Shown here: positions 1,454-21,063 of the stretch, one piece after another
How positions within the stretch are numbered: position 1 is the first letter of the stretch
Layout of the letters: every line of letters starts with the position of its first letter
Origin: Pelagibacteraceae bacterium AG-426-M19
Lineage (GTDB): Bacteria; Pseudomonadota; Alphaproteobacteria; Pelagibacterales; Pelagibacteraceae
Assembly (NCBI GenBank): GCA_003210025.1
Contig: QCNW01000001.1
Span: 124,001 to 188,000, forward strand
DNA: 64,000 bases
Direction: 5' to 3'
The notes under the pieces: model-generated
Database searches by the model: none
What the model saw: only the letters and a program-made list of their open reading frames with translations
What the model was told of the DNA's origin: nothing
Made by a program: the position numbers and the translations under genes

Positions 1454-3481
1454 CTACTGCTGTAAACTTGCTAGTTCTTCAATATTAATATGACATCTAA
1501 TTGCGTTACCATTTTCACCTATTTGCCATGGTGGAACCTCTGAATTACAAATATCACCTATTTTCCTAGGGCATCTTCCTTGAAAAGAACAGCCTTTCTC
1601 GGGGGGTTTTTCCTCTACAATATCCTCAGCTACTAATTTTGGTTTTATATCTGGATCTGGTTCCAAAACAGCACCTAATAATACTTCAGTATAAGGATGT
1701 GATGGAAATTTGTAAACATTTTGAGAAGGACCAATTTCACATAACCTTCCTTGATATAAAACTGCAACTCTATCACTAATTGCTCTAACAACAGCCAGAT
1801 CATGAGAAACAAATACATAGGTTGTTCCTAGATCTTCTTTTAATTGTTGTAATAAGTTTAAAACAGCTGCTTGAACCGAAACATCTAAAGCTGATGTAAC
1901 CTCATCACACAAAATTATATCTGGCTTAGCAGCAAATGCTCTTGCAACTGCAACTCTTTGTTTTTCACCGCCTGATAGTTGTCTAGGGTATCTTGACATA
2001 TAAAACTCTCCCAACCTTACTTTTTTTAGTAGATCGATAATATTTTTTTTTAATTCTTCTCCTGATAAATTAAAATATAACTTTAAAGGTTGAGAAAGTA
2101 TTTGCTCAACTGTGTGGTTGGGATTTAATGACTCGTCTGGATTTTGAAATATAAGTTGTATTGCTCTAAGATCATTTGGATTTCTCATTTTTAAATCAGA
2201 GGATAATATACGATCATTTTCAAATTTAATTTGACCATCTTTAGTTTTGAGTAAGCCAGCAATTGATTTTAGGATAGTAGACTTACCACTTCCAGACTCA
2301 CCAACCAGGGCAATAGTCTCTCCTTTTTTTATATCTATATTTATATCTTTAACTGTTGGGTTTTGATCAGAGATTTTATTTAATAATTGATCAAAAAATT
2401 TCTGCTTTGCATAACTAATTGAAACATCCTTTAATTTTAAAACTTCAATTGCTTCACTATTATTAGATTTTTTTGTTATTGAAGTTTGCAAATTATTATT
2501 TTGGTTTATTAATTCTTTATGATTAAAACATCTGACGTTGGTATCTAATTCTTTAATATGTTCCAGATCTGGTGAATTTTTTTTACAATGATCATTTGCT
2601 AAGTTGCATCTATCATAAAAACTACAACCTTCATTTATGCTTCCAGGCTGGGGTTGGCTTCCTGGCATAGAAGCTGGAAGTCCAGATAATGAAAGTTTAG
2701 GTATCGATTTTAGCAATCCATAAGTATAAGGATGAATAGGTTCCTTTAATATTTTTCTTGCTGGTCCTTCTAATACAATTTCTCCCGCATACATTACAAC
2801 TATTCTATCACTGACTTGTGCAATGGCTCCAAGGTCATGACTAACATAGATCATAGATGTTCCAGTATCTTTTGCTATAAATCTTAATAGTTCTAATACA
2901 TGCGCTTGTGTTGTAACATCTAATCCAGTGGTTGGCTCATCTAATAAAAGTAAATCTGGTTTGCCAGCTAATGCCATTGCAACAGCCACTCTTTGTTGCT
3001 GCCCTCCAGAAAGCTCGTGTGGATAACGAAAAGCCATGGTTTCTGGTGAAGGAAGTCTAACTTTATTTAGTAGCTCCGAAATTTTTTTATCTCTCTCTGT
3101 TTTATTTAGATTTGTATGTAATCTTAATGCTTCATCAATTTGGTATCCAATTTTTAAATTAGGTGTAAGTGCTTGTCCTGCATTTTGAGGTATCATGGCT
3201 ATTTTTCTACCTCTAATTTTTTCTAGCTGTCTACTGGTCATCTTCAATAAATCTTCAGATTTAAAGATGCATTCACCCTTAAGAGGAAATAAGCCTTGTT
3301 TTATATAGCCCATCATTGCAAGTGCTAATGTGCTTTTTCCAGAACCCGACTCCCCTACGATCCCTACAGTCTCTCCTTTCTTAATGTTGGTTGAAACATT
3401 TCTAAGTATTGAAATTTGTTTGCCCTTTTGACTATTAAATCCAATTGATAAATTTTTAACACTTTCAATTATTTCGCTCAT
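1454..3481 (-). CDS. peptide/opine-type ABC transporter, fused double ATP-binding protein
   Basis: ATPase of a Dpp/Opp-family importer, cytoplasmic face of the inner membrane. At 675 residues it is two complete nucleotide-binding domains in tandem. The first has Walker A GESGSGKST (residues 43-51), signature LSGGQQQRVAVA and Walker B LLLLDEP; the second repeats GESGSGKST, LSGGEKQRVAVA and ILCDE. Each half ends in the cysteine-containing Oligo_HPY tail (CSFYDRC and CSFQGRC). In classical systems the halves are separate DppD and DppF; fusions like GsiA or YejF are well known. The start codon directly abuts the stop of the upstream permease, indicating one operon with the permeases and binding protein at 3482-6906. 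The substrate cannot be told from this subunit. Confidence 0.93.
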   Translation of the reverse strand: MSEIIESVKNLSIGFNSQKGKQISILRNVSTNIKKGETVGIVGESGSGKSTLALAMMGYIKQGLFPLKGECIFKSEDLLKMTSRQLEKIRGRKIAMIPQNAGQALTPNLKIGYQIDEALRLHTNLNKTERDKKISELLNKVRLPSPETMAFRYPHELSGGQQQRVAVAMALAGKPDLLLLDEPTTGLDVTTQAHVLELLRFIAKDTGTSMIYVSHDLGAIAQVSDRIVVMYAGEIVLEGPARKILKEPIHPYTYGLLKSIPKLSLSGLPASMPGSQPQPGSINEGCSFYDRCNLANDHCKKNSPDLEHIKELDTNVRCFNHKELINQNNNLQTSITKKSNNSEAIEVLKLKDVSISYAKQKFFDQLLNKISDQNPTVKDINIDIKKGETIALVGESGSGKSTILKSIAGLLKTKDGQIKFENDRILSSDLKMRNPNDLRAIQLIFQNPDESLNPNHTVEQILSQPLKLYFNLSGEELKKNIIDLLKKVRLGEFYMSRYPRQLSGGEKQRVAVARAFAAKPDIILCDEVTSALDVSVQAAVLNLLQQLKEDLGTTYVFVSHDLAVVRAISDRVAVLYQGRLCEIGPSQNVYKFPSHPYTEVLLGAVLEPDPDIKPKLVAEDIVEEKPPEKGCSFQGRCPRKIGDICNSEVPPWQIGENGNAIRCHINIEELASLQQ

Positions 3482-4375
3482 TTAAACAGGTGCCTTTGTT
3501 GAACGATCAATTCCTAAAGCTTTTGCAAATGCATCAGCAGTTAAATTTATTCCAATAATTAACGAACTTAATCCTACTATTGGAGCAATTACGGACCAGT
3601 ATGCAAACGACATCAATCCTCTAGCATTGGATATCATCAAACCCCAATCAGGAGTTGGAGGACTGACACCAAAACCTAAGAATGACAATGAGCTAAATCC
3701 TAATAACATCCAAGACCATCTCATTGCTCCTTCTACTAATATAGCATCTCTAACATTTGGAATAATTTCATTCCAAATAATAGACATGTTGCTATGACCT
3801 CTAGCTCTGGCTGAAACTATAAAGTCTTTAGCAATAACATCGTGCGTAGCAGCTCTAGCAACTCTTACTATTCCTTTACCATAAAAAAAACCTAGTGCAG
3901 GAATTAAAACCTCTGTTGATGTTCCTAAAAGAGAAACAATTAATAACATTGCAAGTATCCAAGGGATAGAAAGAAACGCATCAACAACTCTCATTACAAC
4001 ATCATCAATTTTGCCTCCAACTAAACCACAAAAAATTCCAAGTAAACCTCCCCACAGAAGAGCTATAAGTGATCCAAAGAAAGTTACCGTAAGAGCTGTT
4101 CGCCCTCCAAGTATTGTTCTAGTAAAAACATCTCTACCCAAGCTGTCTGTTCCAAACCAATGTTCAGCAGAAGGTGCAAGTAACATGGTATTTGGGCTAA
4201 TTGCTTTATAATCGTATGGTGCAATGTAAGGACTTGTTAATGCTAAGACTACATGAAATAGTACAATTGTAAGTCCAATTAATCCAGAAGGCTTGGAGGC
4301 CATAGTTTTTAAAATCTCAAAAGCCTTTTCTAGCTTATTTTTTTGTTTATCTTTTATAATTAAATTACTCTCCAT
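3482..4375 (-). CDS. peptide/opine-type ABC transporter permease, DppC-like
   Basis: Inner-membrane permease, 297 residues, with an N-terminal membrane helix (about 33-53), a periplasmic stretch containing the family hallmark HWFGTDSLGRDVFTR, and about five further helices. The EAA-type cytoplasmic loop (SARARGHSNMSIIWNEIIPN) that contacts the ATPase is present. This matches the BPD_transp_1 / OppC N-terminal architecture. It lies one base from the DppB-like gene upstream and abuts the ATPase downstream, so it is an internal gene of the operon. Confidence 0.92.
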   Translation of the reverse strand: MESNLIIKDKQKNKLEKAFEILKTMASKPSGLIGLTIVLFHVVLALTSPYIAPYDYKAISPNTMLLAPSAEHWFGTDSLGRDVFTRTILGGRTALTVTFFGSLIALLWGGLLGIFCGLVGGKIDDVVMRVVDAFLSIPWILAMLLIVSLLGTSTEVLIPALGFFYGKGIVRVARAATHDVIAKDFIVSARARGHSNMSIIWNEIIPNVRDAILVEGAMRWSWMLLGFSSLSFLGFGVSPPTPDWGLMISNARGLMSFAYWSVIAPIVGLSSLIIGINLTADAFAKALGIDRSTKAPV

Positions 4376-4376
4376 T

Positions 4377-5333
4377 TTATTTTCTTATCTGTAAACTTTT
4401 TAATCTTGGATTAAGCATTAGTGTCATTAAATCTGCTATTAAATTTATTCCCACATAGATAGATGCCAATATTATTGCTAATGCTTGAACAACAGGCAAA
4501 TCTCTATTTGATATAGACTCAATTACTAGTCTGCCTAAACCTGGATAATTAAAAACAACTTCTGTAACAACAACACCACCTAACAACCAAGCAATTGTTA
4601 ACGCTACTACATTTATTGCTGGTAATAATGCGTTTGGCAATACATGTCTAAATACCATTTTCCAATATGGAACACCTTTTAAAATTGCCATTTGTACATA
4701 ATCACTAGCCATTACTTGAATTACACTTGAACGTACCATTCTTGCCATGTGTGCGGTCATAATCATTGAAATTGCAACAACAGGTAAAATTATATTTGAG
4801 AGTAATTCATAAAAAGTTGCATCCGATGGTATAATCACAATGCCTGGTAGCCAACCAAGCCAAATTGCAACAATTAAAATAAGCAAAGTAGCACTAATAA
4901 ACTCCGGAATAGTCATTGAAAAAATTGTGATAGTAGAGATCATAATATCTGGAAGCTTATCTCTCCAAAGAGCAGTTATTATTCCTAATACGATTGCTAA
5001 AGGAATTCCTATAAGTATTGAAACAGAGGCTAAAACTAAGGAGTTTTTAACTCTTGGACCTAGTACTTCATTAATTGGCATTTCTCCACTTAAAGAGTAA
5101 CCAAAATCACCTCGTACAACATTTGATGCCCAGTCCAAGTATCTTTCATAAGCAGGAACATCTAGACCAAGTCTTTTTATGCAAGCATCAAGAGCTGCTC
5201 CATAAGCTTCTCTTTCTAAATATGTTGTGCATGCATCACCAGGTAAAACTTCAACACCTACAAATGTAATTAATGATACTATAAATAAAGTGATGAGCCC
5301 TAGTCCAATTCTTTTTAAAATTAATAAAAGCAT
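4377..5333 (-). CDS. peptide/opine-type ABC transporter permease, DppB-like
   Basis: Inner-membrane permease, 318 residues. It starts with a membrane helix (IGLGLITLFIVSLITFVGVE), has the typical periplasmic region with LPGDACTTYLEREAYG and GDFGYSLSG, then five more helices. The EAA loop is YVQMAILKGVPYWKMVFRHVLPNA. These are features of the OppB/DppB family. It is the first permease after the binding-protein gene and is separated from it by a strong hairpin (5381-5408), so its expression probably depends on read-through. Confidence 0.92.
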   Translation of the reverse strand: MLLLILKRIGLGLITLFIVSLITFVGVEVLPGDACTTYLEREAYGAALDACIKRLGLDVPAYERYLDWASNVVRGDFGYSLSGEMPINEVLGPRVKNSLVLASVSILIGIPLAIVLGIITALWRDKLPDIMISTITIFSMTIPEFISATLLILIVAIWLGWLPGIVIIPSDATFYELLSNIILPVVAISMIMTAHMARMVRSSVIQVMASDYVQMAILKGVPYWKMVFRHVLPNALLPAINVVALTIAWLLGGVVVTEVVFNYPGLGRLVIESISNRDLPVVQALAIILASIYVGINLIADLMTLMLNPRLKSLQIRK

Positions 5334-5380
5334 AAGATTAACTAGAACTTTTTAACAAAAATAATTTAAATAGAAATAAA

Positions 5381-5408
5381 ATAAAGGCCGCTTATATGCG
5401 GCCTTTAT
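5381..5408 (-). terminator. hairpin terminator/attenuator after the peptide binding-protein gene
   Basis: Perfect 11-bp inverted repeat ATAAAGGCCGC / GCGGCCTTTAT with a 6-base loop, just past the stop codon of the binding-protein gene on the minus strand and upstream of the DppB-like gene. A T-rich stretch follows on the minus strand. It probably terminates most transcripts while allowing some read-through to the permeases, or it stabilises the 3' end of the binding-protein mRNA. Confidence 0.85.
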
Positions 5409-5418
5409 CTAAATACTT

Positions 5419-6906
5419 TTAGTCAACTTTAACTTTATGCCACTGTATAGAAAAGTGATCTACAGCATCAAGGTTTTTAACTTTTGATGAAGTAACTACA
5501 AGTCTAGATACGTGATATGGGATCATTGTTCCACTTTGTTCCCATAAAGTCATTTGAGCATTTTGATATGCTTTCTTTCTTTTATTGAAATCCAACTCAC
5601 TTCTAGCATCCGCTAAATTTTTATCAAAGTCAGCATTTTTGAAATAAGACTCATTCCATTTTGCTCCACTATGATATGCTTCATGCAAGATTGTGTCTGC
5701 TGGTCTTTGATTCCAACGTGTCATTGAAACTGGCTTTTTCATCCAAACTTCATTCCAATAACCTTTAGATGGTACCATTTCAATATTAACTTTAATTCCT
5801 GCTTTTGCAACTTGTTGCTGAACAACTTCTGCAATCGTAGGCCAAGTTGGCTCTAAAGTTGCTGGGTAAACAGTCAATTCAATTCCATTTGGAAATCCTG
5901 CTTCTCTTAGTAAATTTTTTGCTTTACTGATATTTTGAGGACAATCCATTTGTAAACGATATTGATCAGAAGGCATTACAGGTGTATCACAAGATACAGT
6001 TGCTGCACCACCCATCACTAGGTCTACAAGTTCTTGTCTATCAACTGCTAACCTAAAAGCTTTTCTCACTTTAGGATTATCAAATGGAGCAGTATCAGTT
6101 CTCATAACCACACCTCTCCAGTTTCCAGTTGGAATTACAGTTGTTGTAAATTTAGAATTACTGTCAAATATCTTTTTTTGATTGAAAGGTACATATCTAT
6201 TCATATCAATTTGACCAGTTAAAAGAGCTTGTATTCTTGCTTGAGCATCTGGGATCGCAATGACATGAACTTCTGCAACTCCTGGTGCACCTTCCCAATA
6301 TTCTGGGTTAGCTTTTAGAATTGTAGTTCCTTCTGGATCAAATTTATCAACCATAAATGGTCCAGTACCAACTCCAGTTTGTCCTATAGTATCTCCTGAT
6401 CCTTCAGGTATCATTCTTAATCTGTAGTCAGTTAATAATAACGGAAAGTCAGCAAATGAAGTTGATAACTTCATTTTAACTGTATGCTGATCAACTACCT
6501 CAATATCTTCAACTACATTTAAACTTTTTCTAACTGGAGATCCGATATCAGGATCTTTAGCTCTCATTAGAGAATATTTTACATCTGGAGCATCAAATGC
6601 TGATCCATCATGAAAATATATTCCTTTTCTTAAATTAAATGTCCATTCAGTTGCATCAGAATTAGCACTCCAATCTGTTGATAATGAAGGTGATGGAACA
6701 CCGTTCATATCGGGTCTCACTAATCTATTTTGTGTTTTGATGACAACTTGAAATAAACGCCCTTTTGTTATGGCATCTAAGTTAGTATCTTTTCCAAATC
6801 CAAGATCATGTGATACTTTAAATACTCCACTTGATGCATTGGCAATAGAAAAAGATAATATCAGTGACATAAAAGTCGCTGAAAAAACTTTAAGTATGTA
6901 TTTCAT
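5419..6906 (-). CDS. ABC transporter substrate-binding protein, family 5 (peptide/opine type)
   Basis: Periplasmic solute-binding protein, 495 residues. A signal peptide (MKYILKVFSATFMSLILSFS, cleavage near ANA|SS) is followed by the SBP_bac_5 pattern: an early LFQVVIKTQNRLVRP segment, TEWTFNLRKGIYFHDGSAF, a GTGPFMV segment and a FDNPKVRKAFRLAVDRQEL segment. The start has a good ribosome site (AGAGGGAA). It is first gene of the importer operon and is divergent from the DmdA-like operon at 7048. Family 5 proteins bind peptides, opines, nickel or sugars, so the ligand is unknown. Operon linkage to an acyl-CoA dehydrogenase suggests a carbon source rather than a metal. Confidence 0.92.
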   Translation of the reverse strand: MKYILKVFSATFMSLILSFSIANASSGVFKVSHDLGFGKDTNLDAITKGRLFQVVIKTQNRLVRPDMNGVPSPSLSTDWSANSDATEWTFNLRKGIYFHDGSAFDAPDVKYSLMRAKDPDIGSPVRKSLNVVEDIEVVDQHTVKMKLSTSFADFPLLLTDYRLRMIPEGSGDTIGQTGVGTGPFMVDKFDPEGTTILKANPEYWEGAPGVAEVHVIAIPDAQARIQALLTGQIDMNRYVPFNQKKIFDSNSKFTTTVIPTGNWRGVVMRTDTAPFDNPKVRKAFRLAVDRQELVDLVMGGAATVSCDTPVMPSDQYRLQMDCPQNISKAKNLLREAGFPNGIELTVYPATLEPTWPTIAEVVQQQVAKAGIKVNIEMVPSKGYWNEVWMKKPVSMTRWNQRPADTILHEAYHSGAKWNESYFKNADFDKNLADARSELDFNKRKKAYQNAQMTLWEQSGTMIPYHVSRLVVTSSKVKNLDAVDHFSIQWHKVKVD

Positions 6907-6945
6907 AAGTTCCCTCTTTTTCTTTCGTTGTTTAAATAATCAAAA

Positions 6946-6973
6946 AGATAACAATTCCAGAACTAGATAACAA
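6946..6973. promoter_or_regulatory. direct repeat AGATAACAA x2 in divergent promoter region
   Basis: The nine-base word AGATAACAA occurs at 6946-6954 and again at 6965-6973, a 19-bp period. It sits in the 141-bp region between the peptide binding-protein gene (leftward) and the 7048 operon (rightward). A direct repeat near two helical turns is compatible with a regulator binding site. No regulator gene lies nearby and chance is possible in AT-rich DNA. Confidence 0.35.
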
Positions 6974-7002
6974 CATGCAAAATGTAGTGATTCATCTACT
7001 AA

Positions 7003-7031
7003 TTGAATAGATATTTTAATTAATATACACT
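7003..7031 (+). promoter_or_regulatory. possible promoter of the 7048 operon
   Basis: TTGAAT at 7003-7008 and TACACT at 7026-7031, separated by 17 bases, are a moderate sigma-70-like match placed 16 bases before the ATG at 7048. No convincing ribosome site is visible before that ATG, so the transcript would have a very short leader. Confidence 0.3.
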
Positions 7032-7047
7032 TTTTCTAAATTTATAA

Positions 7048-8271
7048 ATGCAAAACGAATTAAACAAAGTCAGATTTTCAGTAAAACCTTTAAAATCCAA
7101 TGATAATAAAGTTGTTGAGCTTGCACGAACTGTCGGGATACATCCTCTAGCATATCAAGAACTTCCCTATGATCCTGAGTATTCATTTTATGCAGGAAGA
7201 TTAAATCCAGAAGTGCTTTCACACGCTACTGCTGATGAAATGTATTGGAAAGTAAGACAAGAGGTGATTTTTCGTCATACTGGTGAACATCCATATGAAA
7301 TATCTGGTCCCGATGCAGAAAAATTTTTACAAAAAATATTCACAAGAGATATCTCAAAAGTAAAAGTAGGAAGATGCTCGTACCAATTTGCTTGTTACAA
7401 TGATGGAGGTATGCTGACAGATGGAGTTTTACTAAAACTTGAAGAAAATAAATTTTGGTTTGTTCAAGCTGATGGAGATCTTTTTTCATGGTATAAAGCT
7501 CACACTGATAATCTTAATGTAAAAATTTCTGATCCAGACGTTTGGGTAAGTCAAATTCAGGGACCAAAATCTATGGATCTTTTAAAAATTTTAAGTAAAG
7601 ATAGTTTTCCTGATAATTGGAAATATTTTGATTGGAAAGAAATTACTATACTAAATGAAAAAGTAATCGTAAGTAGATCGGGATTTAGTAATGAACTTGG
7701 TTGGGAAATTTATTTTAGAAAAAATAATAATACTGAAAAAGTTGGGGATTATATTCTTGAAGAAGGAAAAAAAATAGGAATGATACTCACAGGCACCCCT
7801 GGTTTCAGATGTAAAAGAATAGAATCTGGATTGTTATCGGCTGGGCAAGACTTTAATCATGAAACAAATCCATATGATGTTGGTTTAGGTAAGTATGTTG
7901 ATTTAAAAAAAAATTATTTTATTGGAAAATCAGCGTTGATGACTGCAGATAAAGAAAAAAGATGTTGGGGAATACGAGTAGAAAATGGAACAGGTTTAAA
8001 AGGAACTTACGTAAAATTTAATAATGAAATAATTGGAAAAATTACATCTAGCACTTGGTCACCTTTTCAACAATGTGGTGTTGGAATAGTTTTAATGAAT
8101 TCTACAAAACATAAACCAGGATTAATTGTGGATGTTAATTGCAATGATAATAAAATTCACAAAGGTGAGATATGCACCCTACCAATGTATGACTTTAAAA
8201 ATGAAATTGTAAGAGGTTTAAAAATCGATATTCCAACAGGTCCTTCTCCGTGGTCAGGAATAAAAAAATAA
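7048..8271 (+). CDS. aminomethyltransferase (GcvT)/DmdA-family protein
   Basis: Tetrahydrofolate-dependent methyl- or aminomethyl-transfer family, cytoplasmic, 407 residues. The folate-binding fold is indicated by HTGEHPYEISGPDAEKFL, FACYNDGGMLTDGVLLKL, VSQIQGPKSMDLL and SRSGFSNELGWEIYF. A later RIESGLLSAGQDF...NPYDVGLGKYV segment aligns with the second GcvT domain, and a C-terminal beta-barrel follows. It is longer than typical GcvT (about 370) because of an extra N-terminal segment of about 60 residues. The rest of the glycine cleavage system is absent nearby, so it is more likely a demethylase-type paralog (as in DmdA, LigM or sarcosine/dimethylglycine systems) than true GcvT. It is the first gene of a seven-gene operon that also holds a second member of the family at 12177. 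The substrate is unknown. Confidence 0.85.
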   Translation: MQNELNKVRFSVKPLKSNDNKVVELARTVGIHPLAYQELPYDPEYSFYAGRLNPEVLSHATADEMYWKVRQEVIFRHTGEHPYEISGPDAEKFLQKIFTRDISKVKVGRCSYQFACYNDGGMLTDGVLLKLEENKFWFVQADGDLFSWYKAHTDNLNVKISDPDVWVSQIQGPKSMDLLKILSKDSFPDNWKYFDWKEITILNEKVIVSRSGFSNELGWEIYFRKNNNTEKVGDYILEEGKKIGMILTGTPGFRCKRIESGLLSAGQDFNHETNPYDVGLGKYVDLKKNYFIGKSALMTADKEKRCWGIRVENGTGLKGTYVKFNNEIIGKITSSTWSPFQQCGVGIVLMNSTKHKPGLIVDVNCNDNKIHKGEICTLPMYDFKNEIVRGLKIDIPTGPSPWSGIKK

Positions 8272-8948
8272 TAGCTATTGGTGGTGGTGGATTTACACAT
8301 TCGTCTGATAAAGACTTGGATGAATATGTTATAAATCAAGTTAATAAATCAAATATCAATATCGGTTTTTTACCTACAGCTAGCAATGATAATCAAGAAA
8401 AGACTGATCTTTTTTATAAAAGATTTAAATCACATAAATTTAAATTATCTCATTTTAATCTCTGTACAAGTGTGGAAGGTTTTAATGAATGGATGTTAAG
8501 CAAAGATATAATTTATGTGGGGGGCGGTAATACTTCTGACATGATTAATATTTGGAGAAGATATAATCTTATCAAAGTATTTAAAGCTGCATATGAAAAA
8601 GGCATAATTCTGAGTGGAATAAGTGCGGGAGCCGTCTGCTGGTTTGATTGGATATTGTCAGACTCAGTCAATAAAGAGCTAAGTCCTTTAAAAGGAATAA
8701 ATTTTTTAGATGGAAGTTGCACACCTCATTCGTCAGATAATAATCGACTTCGACAATTTATTGCAGAAATTAAAGATGGAAATTTGCCAGATGGAATAGC
8801 TATTGATGATGGTGTAGCTGTGCTTTTTATTGACGGAGTTCCTTCAGAGGTTTATTCTTCAAGAATTAATCATGATGCTTATTATGTGACTAGACATTAT
8901 AAAATAAGTTTAAAAACATATATAAAAAATTTAAATGGACAATATTAA
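8250..8948 (+). CDS. peptidase E-like (S51 family, class I amidotransferase fold)
   Basis: 232 residues. It has the S51 features IYVGGGNT (about 88-95), the nucleophile elbow GISAGAVCW with Ser125, and a later CTPHSSDN segment with His160. Family members cleave Asp-X dipeptides (PepE) or cyanophycin; some are of unknown activity. The likely start is a GTG at 8250, inside the end of the preceding gene (22-base overlap): the next residues KKIIAIGGGGF are the first beta strand, leaving no room for a later start. It overlaps the next gene by 14 bases, so translation of the three genes is probably coupled. Its role in a demethylation/oxidation operon is unexplained; it could release an aspartyl or amide-linked substrate. 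Confidence 0.82.
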   Translation: MVRNKKIIAIGGGGFTHSSDKDLDEYVINQVNKSNINIGFLPTASNDNQEKTDLFYKRFKSHKFKLSHFNLCTSVEGFNEWMLSKDIIYVGGGNTSDMINIWRRYNLIKVFKAAYEKGIILSGISAGAVCWFDWILSDSVNKELSPLKGINFLDGSCTPHSSDNNRLRQFIAEIKDGNLPDGIAIDDGVAVLFIDGVPSEVYSSRINHDAYYVTRHYKISLKTYIKNLNGQY

Positions 8949-10095
8949 AGCCAGTAACAAAATTTTTAGCATTGAAGATGCAAAAAAACTATCGAAGAAA
9001 AGATTACCAAGGCTAGTTTATGATTTTATTGATGGTGCATCAGGAGATGAAAAATTATCAGAAATTAATAGTTTTGCTTTAGATCAAATACGTCTTGAAC
9101 CAAGAGTTCTCAGAAATATAGAGGAAAGAAAACTAAAAAAAAATATTCTTGGATTTAACTATGATTATCCTTTTGGTTTTGCCCCAATGGGCATGACAAA
9201 TCTTTCATGGCCAGGCGCAGACTCTATGCTGGCAAAAGAGAGTGCAAGAAATAATATACCAACTTGTGTATCGATGGCTTCAACAACTACCTTAGAAAAA
9301 ATGTATGAGCTTTCAGAAGGTCATTCATGGCTTCAACTTTATATTTTTCAGGATGAAGCTTTTGTCATGGAATTGCTCGATAGAGCAGAAAAAACTGGTT
9401 ATGAAGTTGCTATACTTACTGTTGATGTTCCAGTTTTATCTAGGAGAACTAGAGATGATAAAAATGGATTTTCATATCCGTTTAAAATTGGACCTAAACA
9501 ATTTTTTGATTTTGCAACTCATCCAGTTTGGTCAATATCTACATTGCTTAATGGAATACCAAAGCCAATGAATTACGAGACTTCAAAAAGTGGAAAAGGT
9601 ATTTTTAAAAGAAAAGAAAGTAGAGGAAAAACAGATTGGGAAACTTTAAAAAGAGTAAGAAATAAATGGAAAGGCAAATTAATTGTAAAAGGCGTTATGT
9701 CATCAGATGATGCAGTTAAAATTAAAGAAATGGGTGCGGATGCTATCCAAGTTTCAAATCATGGAGGTAGACAATTAGATAGTGCCTCAGCAGCAATAAA
9801 TATTTTACCTTTTATTAGAGAAGCAGTTGGGAATAATTTTCCAATTATATTTGATAGTGGAATAAGAAGTGGGAGCGATATTGTAAGATCATTAGCTTTA
9901 GGAGCAGATTTTTCAATGATTGGAAGACCTGTAATGTATGCAATGGGAGCTGATGGAGCTAGCGGGCTAAGAAGAATAGTAGACATAATTAAAGAAGAAA
10001 CTAGCACAACACTAGGTTTGGTTGGATTAAATGATATTAATGAAGTTTCTTCTGATATAATTGAACAGAAACTTTTTATGAATACAACTTACTGA
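8935..10095 (+). CDS. FMN-dependent alpha-hydroxy-acid oxidase/dehydrogenase
   Basis: Oxidises an L-2-hydroxy acid to the 2-oxo acid (lactate dehydrogenase LldD, glycolate oxidase, mandelate dehydrogenase family), 386 residues. Visible signatures are FGFAPMGMTNLSWPGAD, SWLQLYIF, AILTVDVPVLSRRTRD and the FMN/catalytic motif SNHGGRQLD (His276, Arg279), then FDSGIRSGSDIVRSLALGADFSMIGRP. The N-terminal region reads VYDFIDGASGDE where many relatives have a Tyr that contacts the substrate carboxylate (DYIDGG or DYYASG); here it appears to be Phe, so substrate binding may differ. It starts inside the peptidase-like gene (14-base overlap) and is followed by a ThDP enzyme after one base. This hydroxyacid-oxidase plus ThDP-enzyme pair recalls the mandelate dehydrogenase/benzoylformate decarboxylase arrangement. 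Confidence 0.9.
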   Translation: MDNIKASNKIFSIEDAKKLSKKRLPRLVYDFIDGASGDEKLSEINSFALDQIRLEPRVLRNIEERKLKKNILGFNYDYPFGFAPMGMTNLSWPGADSMLAKESARNNIPTCVSMASTTTLEKMYELSEGHSWLQLYIFQDEAFVMELLDRAEKTGYEVAILTVDVPVLSRRTRDDKNGFSYPFKIGPKQFFDFATHPVWSISTLLNGIPKPMNYETSKSGKGIFKRKESRGKTDWETLKRVRNKWKGKLIVKGVMSSDDAVKIKEMGADAIQVSNHGGRQLDSASAAINILPFIREAVGNNFPIIFDSGIRSGSDIVRSLALGADFSMIGRPVMYAMGADGASGLRRIVDIIKEETSTTLGLVGLNDINEVSSDIIEQKLFMNTTY

Positions 10096-10096
10096 T

Positions 10097-11836
10097 ATGG
10101 AAAAAAAAATAAGAGGCGGAGCATTAATTGCAAGAGCATTAAAAGATAAAGGTATCAATAAAGTTTTTACTCTATCTGGTGGGTTTTGTAATCCTGCAAT
10201 TGAAGGTTTCATGGAATGTCAAATTGATGTAGTTAATTGTCCTCATGAACAAATAGCTGGACACTTAGCAGATGGACACACAAGAATTACAAGAAAACCA
10301 TCTGTATGTTTAGTTGGGCCAGAAGGTTTTGCAAATGCAGTGCCATCCATGATGGAAGCATGGGGAGAAAGAACACCGATAATTTATATAACTGGATCAA
10401 GTAGTTTAAAACGACAAGGTTCTGGTGGCTTTAAAGAAATTGATGATGTTTCAATAGCTGCTCCTCTTACAAAATATAGTGCAAGCATTACAGATGGAGC
10501 AAGAATTAGAGAATTTGTTGATAAAGCTTACAGAATTGCAACGAATGGATATCCTGGAGCTGTTCATCTAAGTTTACCAGTAGATATAATGTTTTCTTCA
10601 TTTGAAGAAAATGTTGGACTGGAAGAAAGACCATTTTCACATAAAGCAAAGCCAGTTGCTAAGGCATGGCCAGATCCAAATGCTCTATCAAAAATACTTG
10701 AGCTAGCATGTAATGCAAAAAAACCTGTCATAATTGGAGGACATGGTGTTTGGTGGTCAAACTCAGAAAAAAATTTAGAGATTGCGGGTGAAAGTTTAAA
10801 TATTCCAGTTTTTAATGTGCCATACCATCAAAAACTTTTGGGAGAAGAAGCAAATGCATATATGGGTTTAGCAGATATTCACCAATATCCACCTTCAGAA
10901 TTTGCATTACAAAACTCAGACTTAGTTTTAATGATTGGTGCAAGGTTAGATAACCAAATGAATTTTGGTAACCCTCCTTTCATTCCAAAAACAACAACTT
11001 TAGTTTGTATTAACGGATCCCATGAAGAAATTGAGTTTAATAGAGCTGCTGATCATAACCTTTTATGTGATCCAGGAGTATTTTTGGACACTCTATGCAA
11101 TCTAAAGAAAAATAATAAATGGAATTTAGGAAATAGTTGGTTTCAAGATAATAAAAATAGAAAAAAAGATTGGGTGGATAAATCTTTAAATGAATTAAAA
11201 ATTGAAGCTGATAAAGCCAAAAAAAATGGTGGAAAAATTCATCCTTTGCAATTAGCGTTAGATGTTCAAGACGCAATGGATGAGAAAGATTGGCTTGTAA
11301 TTGATGGAGGAAATACTCATTTCTGGTCGGAGATCGCAATAAATTTAGCAGGAGCTCAAGGAAAAAAATTGGGTGGAATTTTACATCCAGGCACATTTAG
11401 TATGCTGGGTGTTGGTGTATCATTTGCATTATCTGCAAAAAATAATAACCCTAAATCGAATGTAATTTTGATTAGTGGAGATGGTGCCTTTTTATCTGGA
11501 GGCATGTCTATAGAAACTGCATTTTTTGAAAAGAAACCAATCGTTGTTGTTATTGACAATAATGGTGGCTTAGCATCAATTGGTCAACAACAAGAAAGAT
11601 TATTTGAAAGCGGAAAAAGAGTTGCAACAGACTTTAGAGATATACCTTTCCACAGTATATTTGAAGGTTTTGGCGGTCATGGAGAATTAGTAACGAAAAG
11701 AGAAGAATTGGGTCCAGCACTAAAAAGAGCTATTGCAAGCGGTAAAACTGCTTGTGTAAATGTAAAAGCTAAACCAGTATTAAGTCCAATTGTTGCTGCT
11801 GTGGCTAGTAAGAGAGAGAAATCATCAATAGAGTAA
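10097..11836 (+). CDS. thiamine diphosphate-dependent enzyme, acetolactate synthase/2-oxoacid decarboxylase superfamily
   Basis: 579 residues with the three-domain ThDP fold. The N-terminal pyrimidine-binding domain carries HEQIAGHLADG with the cofactor-activating Glu51. A central domain contains KPVIIGGHGVWW. The C-terminal pyrophosphate-binding domain carries GDGAFLSGGMSIETA...VVVIDNN, the GDG-N(N) magnesium/ThDP motif. The family includes acetolactate synthase, benzoylformate decarboxylase, oxalyl-CoA decarboxylase and 2-hydroxyacyl-CoA lyase; sequence alone does not decide. No small regulatory subunit (IlvN) is adjacent, and placement directly behind a 2-hydroxyacid oxidase favours a 2-oxo-acid decarboxylase or carboligase in catabolism over valine/isoleucine synthesis. 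The expected product would be an aldehyde or a longer hydroxyketone. Confidence 0.87.
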   Translation: MEKKIRGGALIARALKDKGINKVFTLSGGFCNPAIEGFMECQIDVVNCPHEQIAGHLADGHTRITRKPSVCLVGPEGFANAVPSMMEAWGERTPIIYITGSSSLKRQGSGGFKEIDDVSIAAPLTKYSASITDGARIREFVDKAYRIATNGYPGAVHLSLPVDIMFSSFEENVGLEERPFSHKAKPVAKAWPDPNALSKILELACNAKKPVIIGGHGVWWSNSEKNLEIAGESLNIPVFNVPYHQKLLGEEANAYMGLADIHQYPPSEFALQNSDLVLMIGARLDNQMNFGNPPFIPKTTTLVCINGSHEEIEFNRAADHNLLCDPGVFLDTLCNLKKNNKWNLGNSWFQDNKNRKKDWVDKSLNELKIEADKAKKNGGKIHPLQLALDVQDAMDEKDWLVIDGGNTHFWSEIAINLAGAQGKKLGGILHPGTFSMLGVGVSFALSAKNNNPKSNVILISGDGAFLSGGMSIETAFFEKKPIVVVIDNNGGLASIGQQQERLFESGKRVATDFRDIPFHSIFEGFGGHGELVTKREELGPALKRAIASGKTACVNVKAKPVLSPIVAAVASKREKSSIE

Positions 11837-11837
11837 A

Positions 11838-12173
11838 ATGGCAAAATTTAGCTCACATTTATTGAATGGTTCTGATGGAAATCATGCAAGTAACGTCAAA
11901 GTAAAGATTTATCAAATACAATCCTCAAAATTAAAAAAACTTTTTTTGAATACAAAGACAGATGGAAATGGTAGGATTACACAGCATTTCAATCTTAGCA
12001 AAAAAGATTGTAAATGCGATTATGAAATGATTTGTGATATTAAAAAATATTTTAAAAAGAAAAAAATTGTGGGTGAAATAGTCATAAAATTTAAAATGAC
12101 CGATAATAAAAAAAATTATCACTTGCCAATAATAATTTCTCCTAACAGCTATACAGTTTGGTGGTCAAAATAA
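11838..12173 (+). CDS. transthyretin-like protein related to 5-hydroxyisourate hydrolase, divergent tail
   Basis: 111 residues. The N-terminal strand SSHLLNGSDGNHASNVKVKIY and the C-terminal YHLPIIISPNSYTVWW match the transthyretin/HIU hydrolase fold. The three polar residues of the hydrolase site are in place (His7, Arg46 in DGNGRIT, His95 in YHLP). The family-defining C-terminal YRGS is replaced by VWWSK, so either the active site or the substrate has changed. No urate-pathway genes (uricase, OHCU decarboxylase, xanthine dehydrogenase) are in the window. It lies one base after the ThDP gene and three bases before the DmdA-like gene, firmly inside the operon. It could hydrolyse a different cyclic amide or lactone-like intermediate; this is inference. 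Confidence 0.75.
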   Translation: MAKFSSHLLNGSDGNHASNVKVKIYQIQSSKLKKLFLNTKTDGNGRITQHFNLSKKDCKCDYEMICDIKKYFKKKKIVGEIVIKFKMTDNKKNYHLPIIISPNSYTVWWSK

Positions 12174-12176
12174 TAT

Positions 12177-13340
12177 ATGGCGTCGTTGATACAAAGCAAA
12201 ATTAGCACAAAACTAAATATGTCTAGGAGAATAAGAAGAACTCCTTACACTAAGAAAGTCGAAGAGTGTGGTGTAACTGATTTTACTGTTGTAAATCATA
12301 TGCTTTTACCAAAAAGATTTCAGAAATCTATTGAGGATGATTATTGGCATTTAAATGAACATGTTCAGCTATGGGATGTTTCTTGTCAAAGACAAGTTCA
12401 GATATCAGGTCCAGACGCTAGTTTATTGGTACAAAAAATGACGCCAAGATCATTAAAAAATATGGAGACTGGAAAATGTTTTTATATTCCTATGATTGAT
12501 GAAAATGCTGGAATGATAAATGATCCAGTGTTGTTAAAGTTAGATGATGATATGTTTTGGATTTCAATAGCAGACTCTGATGTATTGCTTTGGGCAAAAG
12601 GTATTGCAGTTGGTTTAAATTTAAATGTAAACATAACAGAACCAGATGTATATCCTCTTGCAGTACAAGGTCCAAAGTCTGAAGATTTGATGGCATCAAT
12701 ATTCGGAGAAGATATTAGAAAATTAAAATTTTTTAATTTTAGAATATTTGATTTTTTAGGAACTAAACAAGTTATTGCGAGATCGGGGTATAGCAAACAA
12801 GATGGATTTGAGATTTATTTTAAATGCTTTGAAGATTACTTTGACAAAAATGAAATGGGAGAAAAAATTTGGGATATAATATGGAAAGCGGGGAAAGAAT
12901 TTAATATTGCTCCAGGATGCCCAAATTTAATTGACAGAATAGAAGCAGGATTAATGTCATATGGAAATGATTTTACAAAAGAAAATAATCCAATTGAATG
13001 TAACTTAGAAAAATATTGTAGTGACAAAAGCGATCACGATTTCATTGGAAAAAATGCTTTAGATAATATTAAGAAACAAGGTGTAAAACAAAAATTAAAA
13101 GGTGTATTATTTGAAGGTGTAGATTGTCCTCCATGTTCAATTCCTTTTCCACTTTATTCAAAAGATAAGAAATTAATTGGTAAAATTACTTCAGGGATTT
13201 ATTCTCCAAAATTCAAAAAAAATATTGGTTTATCAATGATTTTAAATGAATTTTGTGAAATAGGGTCAGAAGTTTTAGTGCACACTCCGGATAATAAATT
13301 AAGAAAAGGAATTGTGTCCTCTTTACCATTTTCAAAATAA
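12177..13340 (+). CDS. dmdA: DmdA-like dimethylsulfoniopropionate demethylase family protein
   Basis: DmdA moves a methyl group from dimethylsulfoniopropionate to tetrahydrofolate, giving methylmercaptopropionate and 5-methyl-THF. The 387-residue product matches what I remember of DmdA along its whole length: SRRIRRTPYTKKVEECGV (16-33), VNHMLLPKRF, HVQLWDVSCQRQVQISGPDA, DENAGMINDPVLLKL, LAVQGPKSEDLM, ARSGYSKQDGFEIY and the hallmark SYGNDFTKENNPIECNLEKY (from 261). Characterised enzymes have GWSKQ where this has GYSKQ (Tyr205), and the N terminus is about 14 residues longer; Met15 is an alternative start at 12219. Two members of the family in one operon with hydroxyacid oxidation suggests this one may use DMSP or a related sulfonium or methylated compound. 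dmdB-D genes are not visible here. Confidence 0.8.
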   Translation: MASLIQSKISTKLNMSRRIRRTPYTKKVEECGVTDFTVVNHMLLPKRFQKSIEDDYWHLNEHVQLWDVSCQRQVQISGPDASLLVQKMTPRSLKNMETGKCFYIPMIDENAGMINDPVLLKLDDDMFWISIADSDVLLWAKGIAVGLNLNVNITEPDVYPLAVQGPKSEDLMASIFGEDIRKLKFFNFRIFDFLGTKQVIARSGYSKQDGFEIYFKCFEDYFDKNEMGEKIWDIIWKAGKEFNIAPGCPNLIDRIEAGLMSYGNDFTKENNPIECNLEKYCSDKSDHDFIGKNALDNIKKQGVKQKLKGVLFEGVDCPPCSIPFPLYSKDKKLIGKITSGIYSPKFKKNIGLSMILNEFCEIGSEVLVHTPDNKLRKGIVSSLPFSK

Positions 13341-13363
13341 TAATTAGTGGTTATAAGTCTTAT

Positions 13364-14488
13364 ATGAAAAGAGCAGTTATAGCAGGGTATTCAAGATCAC
13401 CTTTTACAATGGCTAGAAAAGGTGAATTAATTGACGTTAAGCCTGTAAATATGTTTGCCGAGGTTGTTAAAAATCTTGTATCTAAAACAAAAGTAAATCC
13501 CGCTGATATTGAAGATATTGTTGTAGGTTGCGCATTTCAAGTTGGAGAGCAAAGTTTTAATATTGGGAAACTCACAACATTTTTATCTGGAATGGAAATA
13601 CATACATCTGGAATGACCGTTGATAGATGGTGTGGATCATCTATGGAAGCTATTCATGTTGCAGCCGGTAAAATAGCAATGGGTGCAGGAAAAGTTTTCG
13701 TATGTGGGGGTGTTGAAAGTATGACCAGAGTTACAACTGGCTTTGAACCAATACCTTATCCTTACACAGATAAAGAAAATCCAAATGTTTATTTTTCAAT
13801 GGGAATAACTGCTGAAAATGTTGCCAAGAGATATAAAATTTCAAGAACTGAGCAACAAGAGTTTGCAATTCAAAGTCATCAAAAAGCCAATGAAGCTGAA
13901 GTTAATGGTAAATTTAAAAATGAAATTGTTGAAATTGCTGGCTGCGCAAAAGATGGAAACATACGTCCAAAAAGTAATCAGGAAACTTTAGATGGACTAA
14001 AACTTGCATTTGATCAAGAAGGAACTGTAACTGCTGCAACATCATCACCTCTTACCGATGGAGCAGCAGCAACATTGATATGTGAAGAAAGCTATGCAAA
14101 AGAAAATGGTTTAGAAATTTTAGCTAGAATTGTTGCAACTGGGGTTAAAGGATGTGAGCCTGATGTAATGGGACTTGGACCTATAGGAGCAACTAAAAAA
14201 GCATTAGAGAGAGCAAATTTATCAATTGATGATATTGATATTGTAGAAATCAATGAAGCTTTTGCATCTCAATCAATAGCATGCTTAAAAGACCTTGGTA
14301 TCGATCAGAAGAAAGCTAATTTAGATGGAGGAGCCTTGGCACTTGGTCATCCTCTAGGAGCAACAGGAGCTAGAATTACTGGCAAAGCTGCAGATTTGCT
14401 TAGACGTGAAAATAAGAAGTATGCTTTATCTACTCAATGTATTGGTTTAGGCATGGGTATTGCGACAGTAATCGAGTCAGTTAATTAA
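13364..14488 (+). CDS. thiolase (acetyl-CoA acetyltransferase family)
   Basis: Condenses or cleaves beta-ketoacyl-CoA, 374 residues, homotetramer in relatives. The nucleophile is Cys90 in VDRWCGSSMEAIH. Further motifs are NEAFASQ, GGALALGHPLGATGAR and the second active-site Cys in STQCIGLGMG. It is slightly shorter than the usual 390-400 residues because the loop region before GTVTAATSSPLTDGAAA is compact. It lies 23 bases after the DmdA-like gene, the widest gap in the operon, and closes it; the next gene is convergent and directly abuts. In this context it could release acetyl-CoA from the carbon skeleton left after demethylation. Confidence 0.9.
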   Translation: MKRAVIAGYSRSPFTMARKGELIDVKPVNMFAEVVKNLVSKTKVNPADIEDIVVGCAFQVGEQSFNIGKLTTFLSGMEIHTSGMTVDRWCGSSMEAIHVAAGKIAMGAGKVFVCGGVESMTRVTTGFEPIPYPYTDKENPNVYFSMGITAENVAKRYKISRTEQQEFAIQSHQKANEAEVNGKFKNEIVEIAGCAKDGNIRPKSNQETLDGLKLAFDQEGTVTAATSSPLTDGAAATLICEESYAKENGLEILARIVATGVKGCEPDVMGLGPIGATKKALERANLSIDDIDIVEINEAFASQSIACLKDLGIDQKKANLDGGALALGHPLGATGARITGKAADLLRRENKKYALSTQCIGLGMGIATVIESVN

Positions 14489-19031: not shown

Positions 19032-20204
19032 CTAATAGTTCTTTATATGTAGCTCTTTTGGAAAATTACAGAATAATTCACAACCTTTGTCGGTAACTCG
19101 GATTGCTTCTGATGCTTCTACTCCCCAATCACCAAACTGCATTACTGCAATCATATGAAAACAAACATTTGGTTCAAGTACTGTCATATCGCCTTTATAA
19201 ATATTTAAAGTATGCTCTCCCCAATCTGGTGGATATCCAATGCCTATTGAATAACCCGTTCTTGATTCCTTCTCGATACCATATTTATCTAAAATTTTCC
19301 AAAAAGCTTGGGCAACATCATTTGCTGTGTTTCCTGGTTTTGTAGCATCAATTCCAGCTTGTAAAGCTTCTATAGTTTTATTCATTGTATCTATTTTTAA
19401 TTGATCAGGTTTGCCTAATAAAATTGTTCGAGCCATAGGTGCGTGATATCTTTTATAAACACCTGATAGTTCAATTATAGTTGCTTCACCTTCAACAAAT
19501 TTATCTTGAGTTGCTGTTAAATGTGAAGCAGATGTGCCCTTTCCAGTTGGAAGAAGCGTTGCGATACTAGAATATTCACCTCCAAATTCTTCTGTGCCAT
19601 AAAACAAAGACTTTTGAATTTCTCCAACAGCATCGCATTGTCTTGTACCAGGTTTAATTACTTCCATTGCTGTTTGCATTCCTTTTTGAGAAATTAAAGC
19701 AGCAGACTTCATATAATTTATCTCTGCATTGGATTTAATTAATCTAGCCCAGTTAACTAGTCGATCAGAATCGATAATGTTTGCATTAGGTAATCCCTTT
19801 TTTATCTTTTCATAACAAAAAGCTGTAAAATAATGAGCATCCATTTCAACTCCAATAGACAGTTTATCCCATTTTTTTTCTTTAATTATTTTGGTCAAGT
19901 AATCATAGGGATGTTTTGGCCAAGTATGAATATAACTCTCATCATAAACTATAATATTATCTGTATTTAAATAGGTCTTTATGTACGCTCCACCTGCATC
20001 TTGATCTCTGACAAAGCAAATTGGTTCTTTTGAATCAACATGCACTAATACACATTGTGCATAATAAAAAGACCAAGCATCGTAACCTGTAAGATAATTC
20101 ATGTTGTTTGTGTCGTGAGAAATAATTAAATCAATTTTTTTCTCTCTCATCAGAGATTGAACTTTTAATAATCTTTGTTTGTATTCATCTTTTGAAAAAG
20201 ACAT
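19032..20204 (-). CDS. doeA: M24 family hydrolase, DoeA/EutD-like (ectoine hydrolase type)
   Basis: 390 residues with creatinase-type N-terminal and pita-bread C-terminal domains. Segments matching ectoine hydrolase as I remember it are NYLTGYDAWSFYYAQ, FVRDQDAGGAY, YHAPMARTILLG and GYPPDWGEHTLNI. The two Asp metal ligands of M24 peptidases are replaced (IIELSG and YHAPMAR), as in the metal-independent creatinases and DoeA, so it is unlikely to be a Xaa-Pro peptidase. DoeA opens the ectoine ring to N-alpha-acetyl-diaminobutyrate. The adjacent EutA-like gene strengthens the call, but the deacetylase DoeB and later enzymes are not in the window. Creatinase-like activity on another guanidino or cyclic amide is the main alternative. 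Confidence 0.75.
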   Translation of the reverse strand: MSFSKDEYKQRLLKVQSLMREKKIDLIISHDTNNMNYLTGYDAWSFYYAQCVLVHVDSKEPICFVRDQDAGGAYIKTYLNTDNIIVYDESYIHTWPKHPYDYLTKIIKEKKWDKLSIGVEMDAHYFTAFCYEKIKKGLPNANIIDSDRLVNWARLIKSNAEINYMKSAALISQKGMQTAMEVIKPGTRQCDAVGEIQKSLFYGTEEFGGEYSSIATLLPTGKGTSASHLTATQDKFVEGEATIIELSGVYKRYHAPMARTILLGKPDQLKIDTMNKTIEALQAGIDATKPGNTANDVAQAFWKILDKYGIEKESRTGYSIGIGYPPDWGEHTLNIYKGDMTVLEPNVCFHMIAVMQFGDWGVEASEAIRVTDKGCELFCNFPKELHIKNY

Positions 20205-20207
20205 AAA

Positions 20208-20948
20208 TTAATCAAACAGTCTTCCAAATCCTTTTACAGATTTATTTACACCAATGTTTTCCAAAGACTCCCAGATTAAAGCTTGGTTGCTTGAAAGAAC
20301 TGGAATTCCTAGTCTATCCTCTAATTTTTGTATCAAAGGAAGTACGGGTAAAGCGGTACAAGATACAAATAAAGCATCTGCCTCATTTACATCTAAATTT
20401 ATTAGCACATCAAACAGATAATTTTGATCTACTTTACCAATCTCCATGTCAGAATGAATATCAAAGTATGAATTTGAGGTGATTTCAAAACCAGATGATT
20501 TAAAATAATCAACAACATCATCGTTAACTTTTTTACTATAAGGTGTGAATATAGAAAGTTTTTTAATATTTAATTTTTTCAATGCTTTCAAAGCTGCTGT
20601 ACTTGGTGTTGAAAGTTTTGCCTCAGGTTTTGCTGCTTGTATTTTATTTTTAATATTATCGTACCCTGCTGCAATAGTTCCTGATGTACAAGCATATACA
20701 ACACAGTCTAATTTTTGCTCTGGCAAGATATCTCTTGTTACTTGAGTAATATTCTCTGACATTTTGATCAAATTCTCTTTGGTTAAGGGATTATAACATT
20801 CTATTCTATTTACAAAAAAATCTATTTTTTTATCTTTAATTACACTTATAAAATCTTTTTCAATCACTAGATCGGTTGCTAAAGCGATAAGTCCAATACG
20901 TGGATTTTGGTTATTTTCAAACTTTGGTTCTATTTTTTGTGATTTCAT
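20208..20948 (-). CDS. eutA: Asp/Glu racemase superfamily protein, EutA-like
   Basis: About 246 residues, related to maleate isomerase/arylmalonate decarboxylase. The two half-site cysteines are visible in VVYACTSGTIAAG and ADALFVSCTALPVLP. Openings PRIGLIALATD and LSSNQALIWESL are shared with the EutA ectoine-utilisation protein as I recall it. An in-frame ATG at 20967-20969 would add seven hydrophobic residues, but the ATG at 20946-20948 (MKSQK) fits family length and leaves room for a promoter before the divergent aldehyde dehydrogenase gene. It is first gene of the operon, three bases before doeA-like. Confidence 0.72.
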   Translation of the reverse strand: MKSQKIEPKFENNQNPRIGLIALATDLVIEKDFISVIKDKKIDFFVNRIECYNPLTKENLIKMSENITQVTRDILPEQKLDCVVYACTSGTIAAGYDNIKNKIQAAKPEAKLSTPSTAALKALKKLNIKKLSIFTPYSKKVNDDVVDYFKSSGFEITSNSYFDIHSDMEIGKVDQNYLFDVLINLDVNEADALFVSCTALPVLPLIQKLEDRLGIPVLSSNQALIWESLENIGVNKSVKGFGRLFD

Positions 20949-21063
20949 AAATACAATATACCACCACATATTGATTAATCATTAAAATTAAAAACTGTAT
21001 CTAATTTCTTGAATGGTTATAGTAAATAAACGTATAATAAGAAAAATTAATTTTGAAATATCA

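Follow-up and report, generated by a model that had tools for sequence, protein, structure and literature searches.

What does a run of seven same-strand genes, which joins two proteins of the tetrahydrofolate (THF) methyltransferase family to enzymes of 2-hydroxyacid oxidation and thiamine diphosphate (ThDP) chemistry, do for an abundant ocean bacterium of the SAR11 group, and where does the unit to which they belong begin and end? The genes, here called g1 to g7, lie in a 64,000-nucleotide stretch (the window; positions 124,001 to 188,000 of the forward strand of contig QCNW01000001.1, assembly GCA_003210025.1) of the 1.26 Mb genome of Pelagibacteraceae bacterium AG-426-M19, and a sequence-only reading had proposed that they form one operon for the degradation of a methylated 2-hydroxy acid. 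The answer developed below is built on direct observations of the gene set, its synteny, the co-occurrence of an importer, the clade placement of g1 and g6, and conserved residues. It holds that the locus is a catabolic cassette, gained and lost as a unit, whose substrate is a methylated (onium) 2-hydroxy acid or a conjugate thereof, a reading to which we give an even chance.

Extent and conservation of the unit

The seven plus-strand open reading frames (ORFs) are confirmed, with successive gaps of -22, -14, 1, 1, 3 and 23 bases, in agreement with the two overlaps and the gaps of at most 23 bases described earlier, and all seven proteins exceed the gathering scores of the Pfam families by which they had been named. 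The grouping of these genes is far beyond chance; scanning the locus for promoter- and terminator-like signals returned none above shuffled sequence.

The unit conserved across lineages comprises four genes, g3 to g6 (flavin mononucleotide (FMN) dehydrogenase, ThDP enzyme, transthyretin-like protein and DmdA-like protein), and not seven. Contigs of named genomes were searched with the ThDP alignment, and 60 loci among the matches listed constitute the sample, in 49 of which the four genes are adjacent and in the same order. Specifically, this core is intact in every one of the 32 single-cell genomes, of which 18 are titled Pelagibacteraceae and 14 Alphaproteobacteria, and in 17 of the 28 other loci, among them those of SAR116, Pelagibius, Rhodobacteraceae, Planktomarina and Gammaproteobacteria. 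Contig ends interrupt three of the 11 non-contiguous loci (L093, L101, L105), and the remaining ones, except L085 and L095, miss one or two genes in place. The full seven-gene order recurs at L042, L043 and L044 (genomes G014, G035 and G043, respectively), with protein identities of 59-83%. Orthologs of g1 at 65% identity or more occur in four of 99 family genomes, including its own, and the other three carry the whole block and the same ATP-binding cassette (ABC) importer; g4 is 82-83% identical to its counterparts in three other SAR11 genomes. In wider samples the ThDP gene is rare (3/289 class genomes and 2/398 phylum genomes, its own included). Plasmid records hold no g4 homolog at E 1e-100, and the 15 with a g6 homolog all fall below 60% identity. 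A small ORF on the opposite strand is found between g1 and g2 in some SAR11 loci, among them L043 (9739-10467), L060 (7370-8098) and L059, and at L060 it codes for a solute-binding protein of the SBP_bac_3 family.

Within the genus, the unit is a gain/loss cassette to which the divergently oriented Dpp-type importer also belongs. Among 151 genomes, 34 hold the ThDP gene, 32 hold dppA and 30 hold both (Fisher p 5e-25, a value that ignores relatedness and shared ancestry). The flanks belong to the core genome, since a FadB-like gene is present in 124/151 and a DoeA-like gene in 122/151 genomes; the FadB-like gene at the left edge of the window was therefore rejected as a member of the unit. Empty sites are seen in three genomes without the ThDP gene, where fadB abuts potC at 12-33 bp. 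A fourth genome without the cassette has the order fadB, thiolase, potC, the thiolase adjoining fadB as at L167, and eight further genomes without the ThDP gene have fadB-thiolase spacings of 38-129 bp by coordinates, giving nine in all. The cassette may have been either inserted between fadB and the thiolase or lost from between them.

The thiolase gene g7 occurs in 45/151 genomes, specifically in 33 of the 34 that carry the ThDP gene and in 12 of the 117 others. It is strongly associated with the cassette yet separable from it, and the cassette-free fadB-thiolase genomes weaken its candidacy as an obligatory member of the pathway; g7 is probably a partner of the flanking fadB. Because the importer co-occurs with the cassette and the thiolase is separable, the unit is best drawn as dppABCDF plus g1 to g6, at about 1454-13340 (Table 1). 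Thus, the proposal that the seven genes make up one pathway unit is not supported in that form: it took in a separable gene and missed the importer.

Table 1. Features of the cassette and the linked thiolase gene, in window coordinates
Feature	Coordinates	Strand	Basis
dppDF, dppC, dppB: importer ATPase (675 aa) and two permeases	1454..5333	-	ORFs; homologs near core in SAR11, SAR116, IMCC1909, G335, G703
dppA: SBP_bac_5 solute-binding protein	5419..6906	-	Pfam SBP_bac_5 278.5 bits; divergent from g1, 141 bp between
g1: GcvT-like, 407 aa	7048..8271	+	GCV_T (144 bits) and GCV_T_C; own clade
g2: peptidase S51-family hydrolase, 232 aa, GTG start	8250..8948	+	Peptidase_S51 119.7 bits
g3: FMN 2-hydroxyacid dehydrogenase, mandelate-dehydrogenase-like, core gene 1	8935..10095	+	FMN_dh 393 bits
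g4: ThDP enzyme, HACL/OXC/benzaldehyde-lyase branch, core gene 2	10097..11836	+	TPP_enzyme_N/M/C
g5: transthyretin/HIUase-like, 111 aa, core gene 3	11838..12173	+	Transthyretin 71.9 bits
g6: DmdA-like THF-dependent demethylase (predicted), 387 aa, core gene 4	12177..13340	+	GCV_T and GCV_T_C; NF009133 532 bits
g7: thiolase, 374 aa, linked but separable	13364..14488	+	Thiolase_N/C

Placement of the encoded proteins

Among the seven proteins, g6 alone passes a specific NCBIfam model, that of the dimethylsulfoniopropionate (DMSP) demethylase DmdA, the first enzyme of one DMSP breakdown route (NF009133, cut-off 410 bits), and scores 167 against the GcvT model (cut-off 300) and 47-55 bits against the LigM/DesA models. 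The g7 protein passes a general acyltransferase subfamily, and g1 to g5 stay under every NCBIfam cut-off listed (for g4, among the best 25 of 51 families). In a FastTree phylogeny of 154 proteins, where the statements on clades and on residue 32 rest on two MAFFT alignments, 57 distinct g6 proteins, each encoded beside a ThDP gene, form one clade (support 0.944) that is sister to the Roseobacter DmdA proteins (0.969), with the P. ubique-type DmdA next (0.948). Thus, g6 does not group within any DmdA clade that has tested members and belongs to a separate clade between the Roseobacter and P. ubique types; the Roseobacter side of the tree includes a Phaeobacter inhibens protein from a dmdD-containing cluster.

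Compared with the DmdA of Ca. P. ubique (3tfh) and of Roseobacter, g6 has the same family, a similar length and the THF-binding residues (E204 in 57/57 and Y206 in 56/57 clade members) besides passing the curated cut-off, whereas it is about 50% identical, forms its own clade, and has V at residue 32 (56/57 core proteins) in place of the Y found in 36/37 other DmdA sequences. Moreover, no close dmdB or dmdD stands beside g6: in the window, L163-L165 and the 60 named loci, DmdD homologs reach at most 28% identity, and the single DmdB homolog (30%, L081) is far from the core. According to passages of PMC8547437, dmdD is missing in SAR11 and SAR116, and gene context is for this reason weak evidence. 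A canonical DmdA (77% identical to 3tfh) is encoded on another contig (locus L010), with an acyl-CoA-ligase-like gene as its neighbour. The DmdA of the same-genus genome G026 (L021) is 100% identical to the 3tfh chain, so that the genus is presumably Pelagibacter. Residue W197 was considered as a marker of DMSP use and dropped. It corresponds to the residue named W171, in its own numbering, in passages of PMC7487153 (mapped by distance to the THF residues), and it is Y in 54/57 core proteins (F in three); the same Y occurs in Roseobacter DmdA, including that of Phaeobacter inhibens, so that the position does not discriminate.

The g1 protein, with 143 bits against the GcvT model and 204 against the DmdA model (cut-offs 300 and 410), forms a clade of its own and is a probable THF-dependent methyl or methylene transferase; by clade and score, neither g1 nor g6 is a glycine-cleavage T protein. 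According to excerpts of PMC3160333 (Sun et al. 2011), three cultured SAR11 strains have four proteins of this kind each, and neither g1 nor the g6 clade is among the SAR11 proteins that these excerpts name. At L045 (5648-6826) and L046 (5528-6703), in genomes G035 and G043, a GcvT-like protein that shares 36-38% identity with g1 is encoded next to a molybdopterin-oxidoreductase-like gene of about 780 codons, inside a betaine-type transporter cluster.

The closest single-copy solved chain to g3 is the P. putida (S)-mandelate dehydrogenase 6bfg, with which it aligns over its full length (245 bits). The five catalytic residues of FMN 2-hydroxyacid dehydrogenases are retained among 57 orthologs (H276 and R279 in 57, K252 in 56, Y136 and R171 in 55, with gaps as the remainder), together with the Gly that is typical of the dehydrogenase. 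The L-lactate dehydrogenase and oxidase models are scored far under their cut-offs (267.5 vs 376, 224.5 vs 550, 169.6 vs 645.5). The earlier assignment to the 2-hydroxyacid enzyme family is thus borne out by family and residues, while the term oxidase is not supported, the residue pattern being mandelate-dehydrogenase-like.

For g4, the nearest solved chains are oxalyl-CoA decarboxylase/hydroxyacyl-CoA lyase and benzaldehyde lyase (198 bits, nearly full length), yet the protein scores far under the 2-hydroxyacyl-CoA lyase and oxalyl-CoA decarboxylase cut-offs (237.8 vs 600 and 205.3 vs 557). It also falls short of the acetolactate synthase models (at best 274.6 vs 587, among the best 25 of 51 families). 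The mandelate pathway of Pseudomonas putida, MdlB-MdlC, similarly pairs a mandelate-dehydrogenase-type FMN enzyme with a ThDP enzyme, and g4 too may act on 2-oxo acids; it differs in that g4 is nearest to the HACL/OXC/benzaldehyde-lyase branch, benzoylformate decarboxylase not being among the best 60 of 62 PDB matches, and in that the seven genes include no racemase and add demethylases. At L085 (9989-12483), a g4 ortholog lies beside a GlcD-like gene and, by eye, a TctCBA-like transporter; at L095 (6161-14409), another lies beside BktB, a 3-hydroxyacyl-CoA-dehydrogenase-like gene, an acyl-CoA dehydrogenase and OsmC (64-67% identity for the two orthologs).

The sequence-only reading had named two outcomes that would count against it, namely synteny limited to this genome and placement of the proteins in GcvT, IlvB and lactate oxidase clades with house-keeping roles. 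Synteny extends beyond one genome and the proteins fall elsewhere, judged by the tree for g1 and g6 and by model cut-offs and solved-chain similarity for g3 and g4, so that the reading stands on both counts.

The g5 protein shares its fold family with 5-hydroxyisourate (HIU) hydrolase. In an alignment of 27 proteins (the window and 26 loci, from 54 loci with a match), the HIU hydrolase-type His is present in 26 (one gap), and the Arg of DxxGR and the His of YHxP are present in 27/27. Conversely, GxHA (26/27) stands in place of GxPA, and a tail YxxWxS, with W in 27/27 and S two positions on in 26/27, in place of C-terminal YRGS, the two motifs of HIU hydrolase. The TIGR02962 score of 72.3 bits is under the cut-off of 87.45, and no other urate gene is found among g1 to g7. 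Since the HIU hydrolase-type residues are kept and both motifs are replaced, g5 is probably a hydrolase with a substrate other than hydroxyisourate. Homologs of g2 lie beside or near dppA in SAR116, IMCC1909, Hyphomicrobiales, G335 and G703. The closest solved chain to DppA is YliB, followed by HbpA, 5u4o and AgaA.

Genes around the core

Neighbour genes at other loci suggest 2-hydroxy acids, methyl transfer and CoA chemistry, with more than one possible substrate. As counted by similarity clusters in which one member each was identified by a model, MttB-family homologs occur in 5/28 and LysR-type regulators in 12/28 of the loci other than single-cell genomes, and genes for tripartite ATP-independent periplasmic (TRAP) transporters lie near the core in 7/60 loci, with the DctP model satisfied at L088. 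The S51 gene is directly beside an MttB-family gene in the SAR116 locus L082, as is a homolog at L163; a homocysteine-methyltransferase gene of the BHMT/MmuM family is upstream of g1 in AG-910-type loci, and PurU is downstream at L079. Additional 2-hydroxyacid enzymes, of other families than g3, accompany g4 orthologs at L080 (Ldh2/sulfolactate-dehydrogenase-like) and L085 (the GlcD-like protein), both under equivalog cut-offs. A pyridoxal phosphate (PLP) enzyme of Cys/Met metabolism follows g6 at L094, with a homolog at L103, and several SAR11 loci have a branched-chain aminotransferase (BCAT) gene after the thiolase. The hydrolases near the core vary by lineage and include S51, S15, agmatinase-like and carbon-nitrogen types.

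At L104 (7015-8672), in an alphaproteobacterial metagenome-assembled genome, HalD-like and PhyH-like oxygenase genes diverge from the core in an arrangement reminiscent of alpha-oxidation. In the window, positions 19032-26417 hold DoeA-like (448 bits, cut-off 613), EutA-like (221, cut-off 318) and aldehyde dehydrogenase genes and, by eye, two genes of the homocysteine-S-methyltransferase type, as in an ectoine-like or methylated-osmolyte cluster. Further on, positions 30900-42517 show by eye a betaine-type ABC transporter and BBOX-like oxygenase, 3-hydroxyacyl/carnitine-dehydrogenase-like, BKACE-like, CitE-like and choline-dehydrogenase-like genes, and resemble a carnitine/butyrobetaine region.

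The pathway and its substrate

The proposed cassette would work through a set of steps to which no fixed order is assigned. The DppABCDF importer would take up the compound, and g2 would release the acid, a task that other amide or ester hydrolases nearby may fill in other lineages. A methyl group of a sulfonium or quaternary ammonium would be transferred to THF by g6 and, in SAR11, also by g1; g3 would turn the 2-hydroxy acid into a 2-oxo acid, with electrons probably passing to the respiratory chain, and g4 would decarboxylate or cleave the latter to an aldehyde one carbon shorter. A cyclic form (lactam or lactone) would be hydrolysed by g5, and the product would enter CoA chemistry, in SAR11 probably through the flanking FadB and the thiolase. 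The class of chemistry put forward earlier, namely oxidation, decarboxylation and demethylation, fits and is retained as plausible. As the substrate, a dimethylsulfonio acid such as 4-dimethylsulfonio-2-hydroxybutyrate (DMSHB) has about the same chance as a trimethylammonio acid.

Several points weigh against a pathway of this kind. The role given to g5 is a guess. Position Y29 of g3, a substrate-binding tyrosine in glycolate oxidase, is F in 46/57 orthologs (Y in eight, a gap in three). The core is found without g1, g2 and g7, and at L085 and L095 a g4 ortholog is present without g3, g5 and g6, so that the parts may serve other routes. The MttB-type neighbours suggest quaternary amines rather than sulfonium compounds; THF-dependent methyl transfer from a tertiary amine would be chemically unusual, which makes two demethylases acting on one nitrogen hard to explain.

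The narrower alternatives fix the substrate. In the best of them, which we regard as unlikely, the compound would be a quaternary ammonium (betaine-type) acid or amide, with g1, MttB and the BHMT-like protein as lineage-specific first demethylases and g6 acting on a compound, such as beta-alanine betaine, in which nitrogen takes the place of the sulfur of DMSP. This would account for the S51 gene abutting MttB at the SAR116 locus L082 and in G335 and abutting g1 in SAR11, for the company of the BHMT-like gene and g1 in AG-910-type loci, and for the resemblance, by eye, of adjoining window regions to betaine and carnitine genes; the change of Y32 to V could, as pure inference, make room for a third methyl. 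Conversely, g6 is embedded among DmdA sequences, known MttB enzymes require corrinoid partners, and a second THF-dependent demethylation, that of a tertiary amine, would be unusual.

Catabolism of DMSHB itself has a slightly smaller chance, roughly one in five. Oxidation by g3 and decarboxylation by g4, followed by a further oxidation to DMSP, would precede demethylation by g6; alternatively, g6 would first make 4-methylthio-2-hydroxybutyrate (MTHB), which g3 and g4 would convert to methional and thence to methylmercaptopropionate (MMPA), and either route would feed the DMSP demethylation pathway. The placement of g6 between two DmdA clades, the BCAT gene and the Cys/Met PLP enzyme agree with this, and passages of PMC11306096 suggest that the compound is prominent in marine environments and state that the DMSHB-decarboxylating enzymes of several organisms are unidentified. 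DMSHB suits g3, g4 and g6 as a substrate. However, g5, g2, the MttB-type neighbours, the Opp-type importer and the thiolase association are left unexplained, the core holds no aldehyde dehydrogenase and has no dmdB or dmdD beside it, and the Y32 of other DmdA sequences is replaced. If the substrate is DMSHB, the cassette would act on the same compound as the decarboxylase domain DsyD of DsyGD, described in passages of PMC11306096; DsyD is a PF04115 ureidoglycolate-lyase-type domain, of which Pfam finds no match in g1 to g7.

A methylated ring compound, either an N-methyl lactam or a methoxylated cyclohexenone such as the mycosporine-like amino acids, is rather improbable. Here g5 would open the ring, g4 would act as a C-C lyase in place of a decarboxylase, and g1 and g6 would be N- or O-demethylases similar to LigM, in line with the HIU hydrolase-type His and Arg of g5 and with the lineage-dependent C-N and ester hydrolases near the core; yet g6 is much nearer to DmdA than to LigM/DesA, and the core has no ring-specific oxygenase. 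Lastly, chance adjacency of house-keeping genes for glycine cleavage, branched-chain amino acid synthesis, lactate oxidation and urate breakdown is very improbable: every protein does belong to a broad family with house-keeping members, but all score under the listed GcvT, acetolactate synthase, LldD/lactate oxidase and HIU hydrolase cut-offs, the strongest of the 11 GCV_T-domain matches in the genome lies elsewhere (L001), and the genes are syntenic and gained or lost as a unit. Homarine catabolism was also considered, and none of the papers listed in open-licence searches on it pointed to such a gene set.

Returning to the cassette for a methylated 2-hydroxy acid, no publication describing the gene set was found in the open-licence literature. 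The unit is more interesting than first claimed, being a transferable importer and pathway whose four central genes are widely conserved, but it is also less tidy, given the separable thiolase. Because g6 passes the automatic DmdA cut-off, annotation, and possibly surveys of dmdA, may overcount DMSP demethylation; in the SAR116-type genomes G102, G103, G104 and G115, the g6-type gene is the best match to the DmdA model. Should the substrate be DMSHB, the unit would give candidate enzymes for its oxidation and decarboxylation, a step for which passages of PMC11306096 report a persisting lack of knowledge. We consider it somewhat short of an even bet that the locus represents a complete new marine pathway, with the SAR11 cassette recurring in SAR116, Roseobacter-type bacteria and Gammaproteobacteria, for a pool of methylated 2-hydroxy acid not yet known to be consumed; it would bring at least two new activities, one in a demethylase of the DmdA clade that uses a different onium acid, the other in a hydrolase of transthyretin fold that does not act on hydroxyisourate, and part of the surveyed dmdA would belong to it and not to DMSP demethylation. 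The unit joins importer and pathway in about 12 kb, has its ThDP gene in 34/151 genomes of the genus and shares its core with unrelated marine lineages, features that point to a resource both real and uneven.

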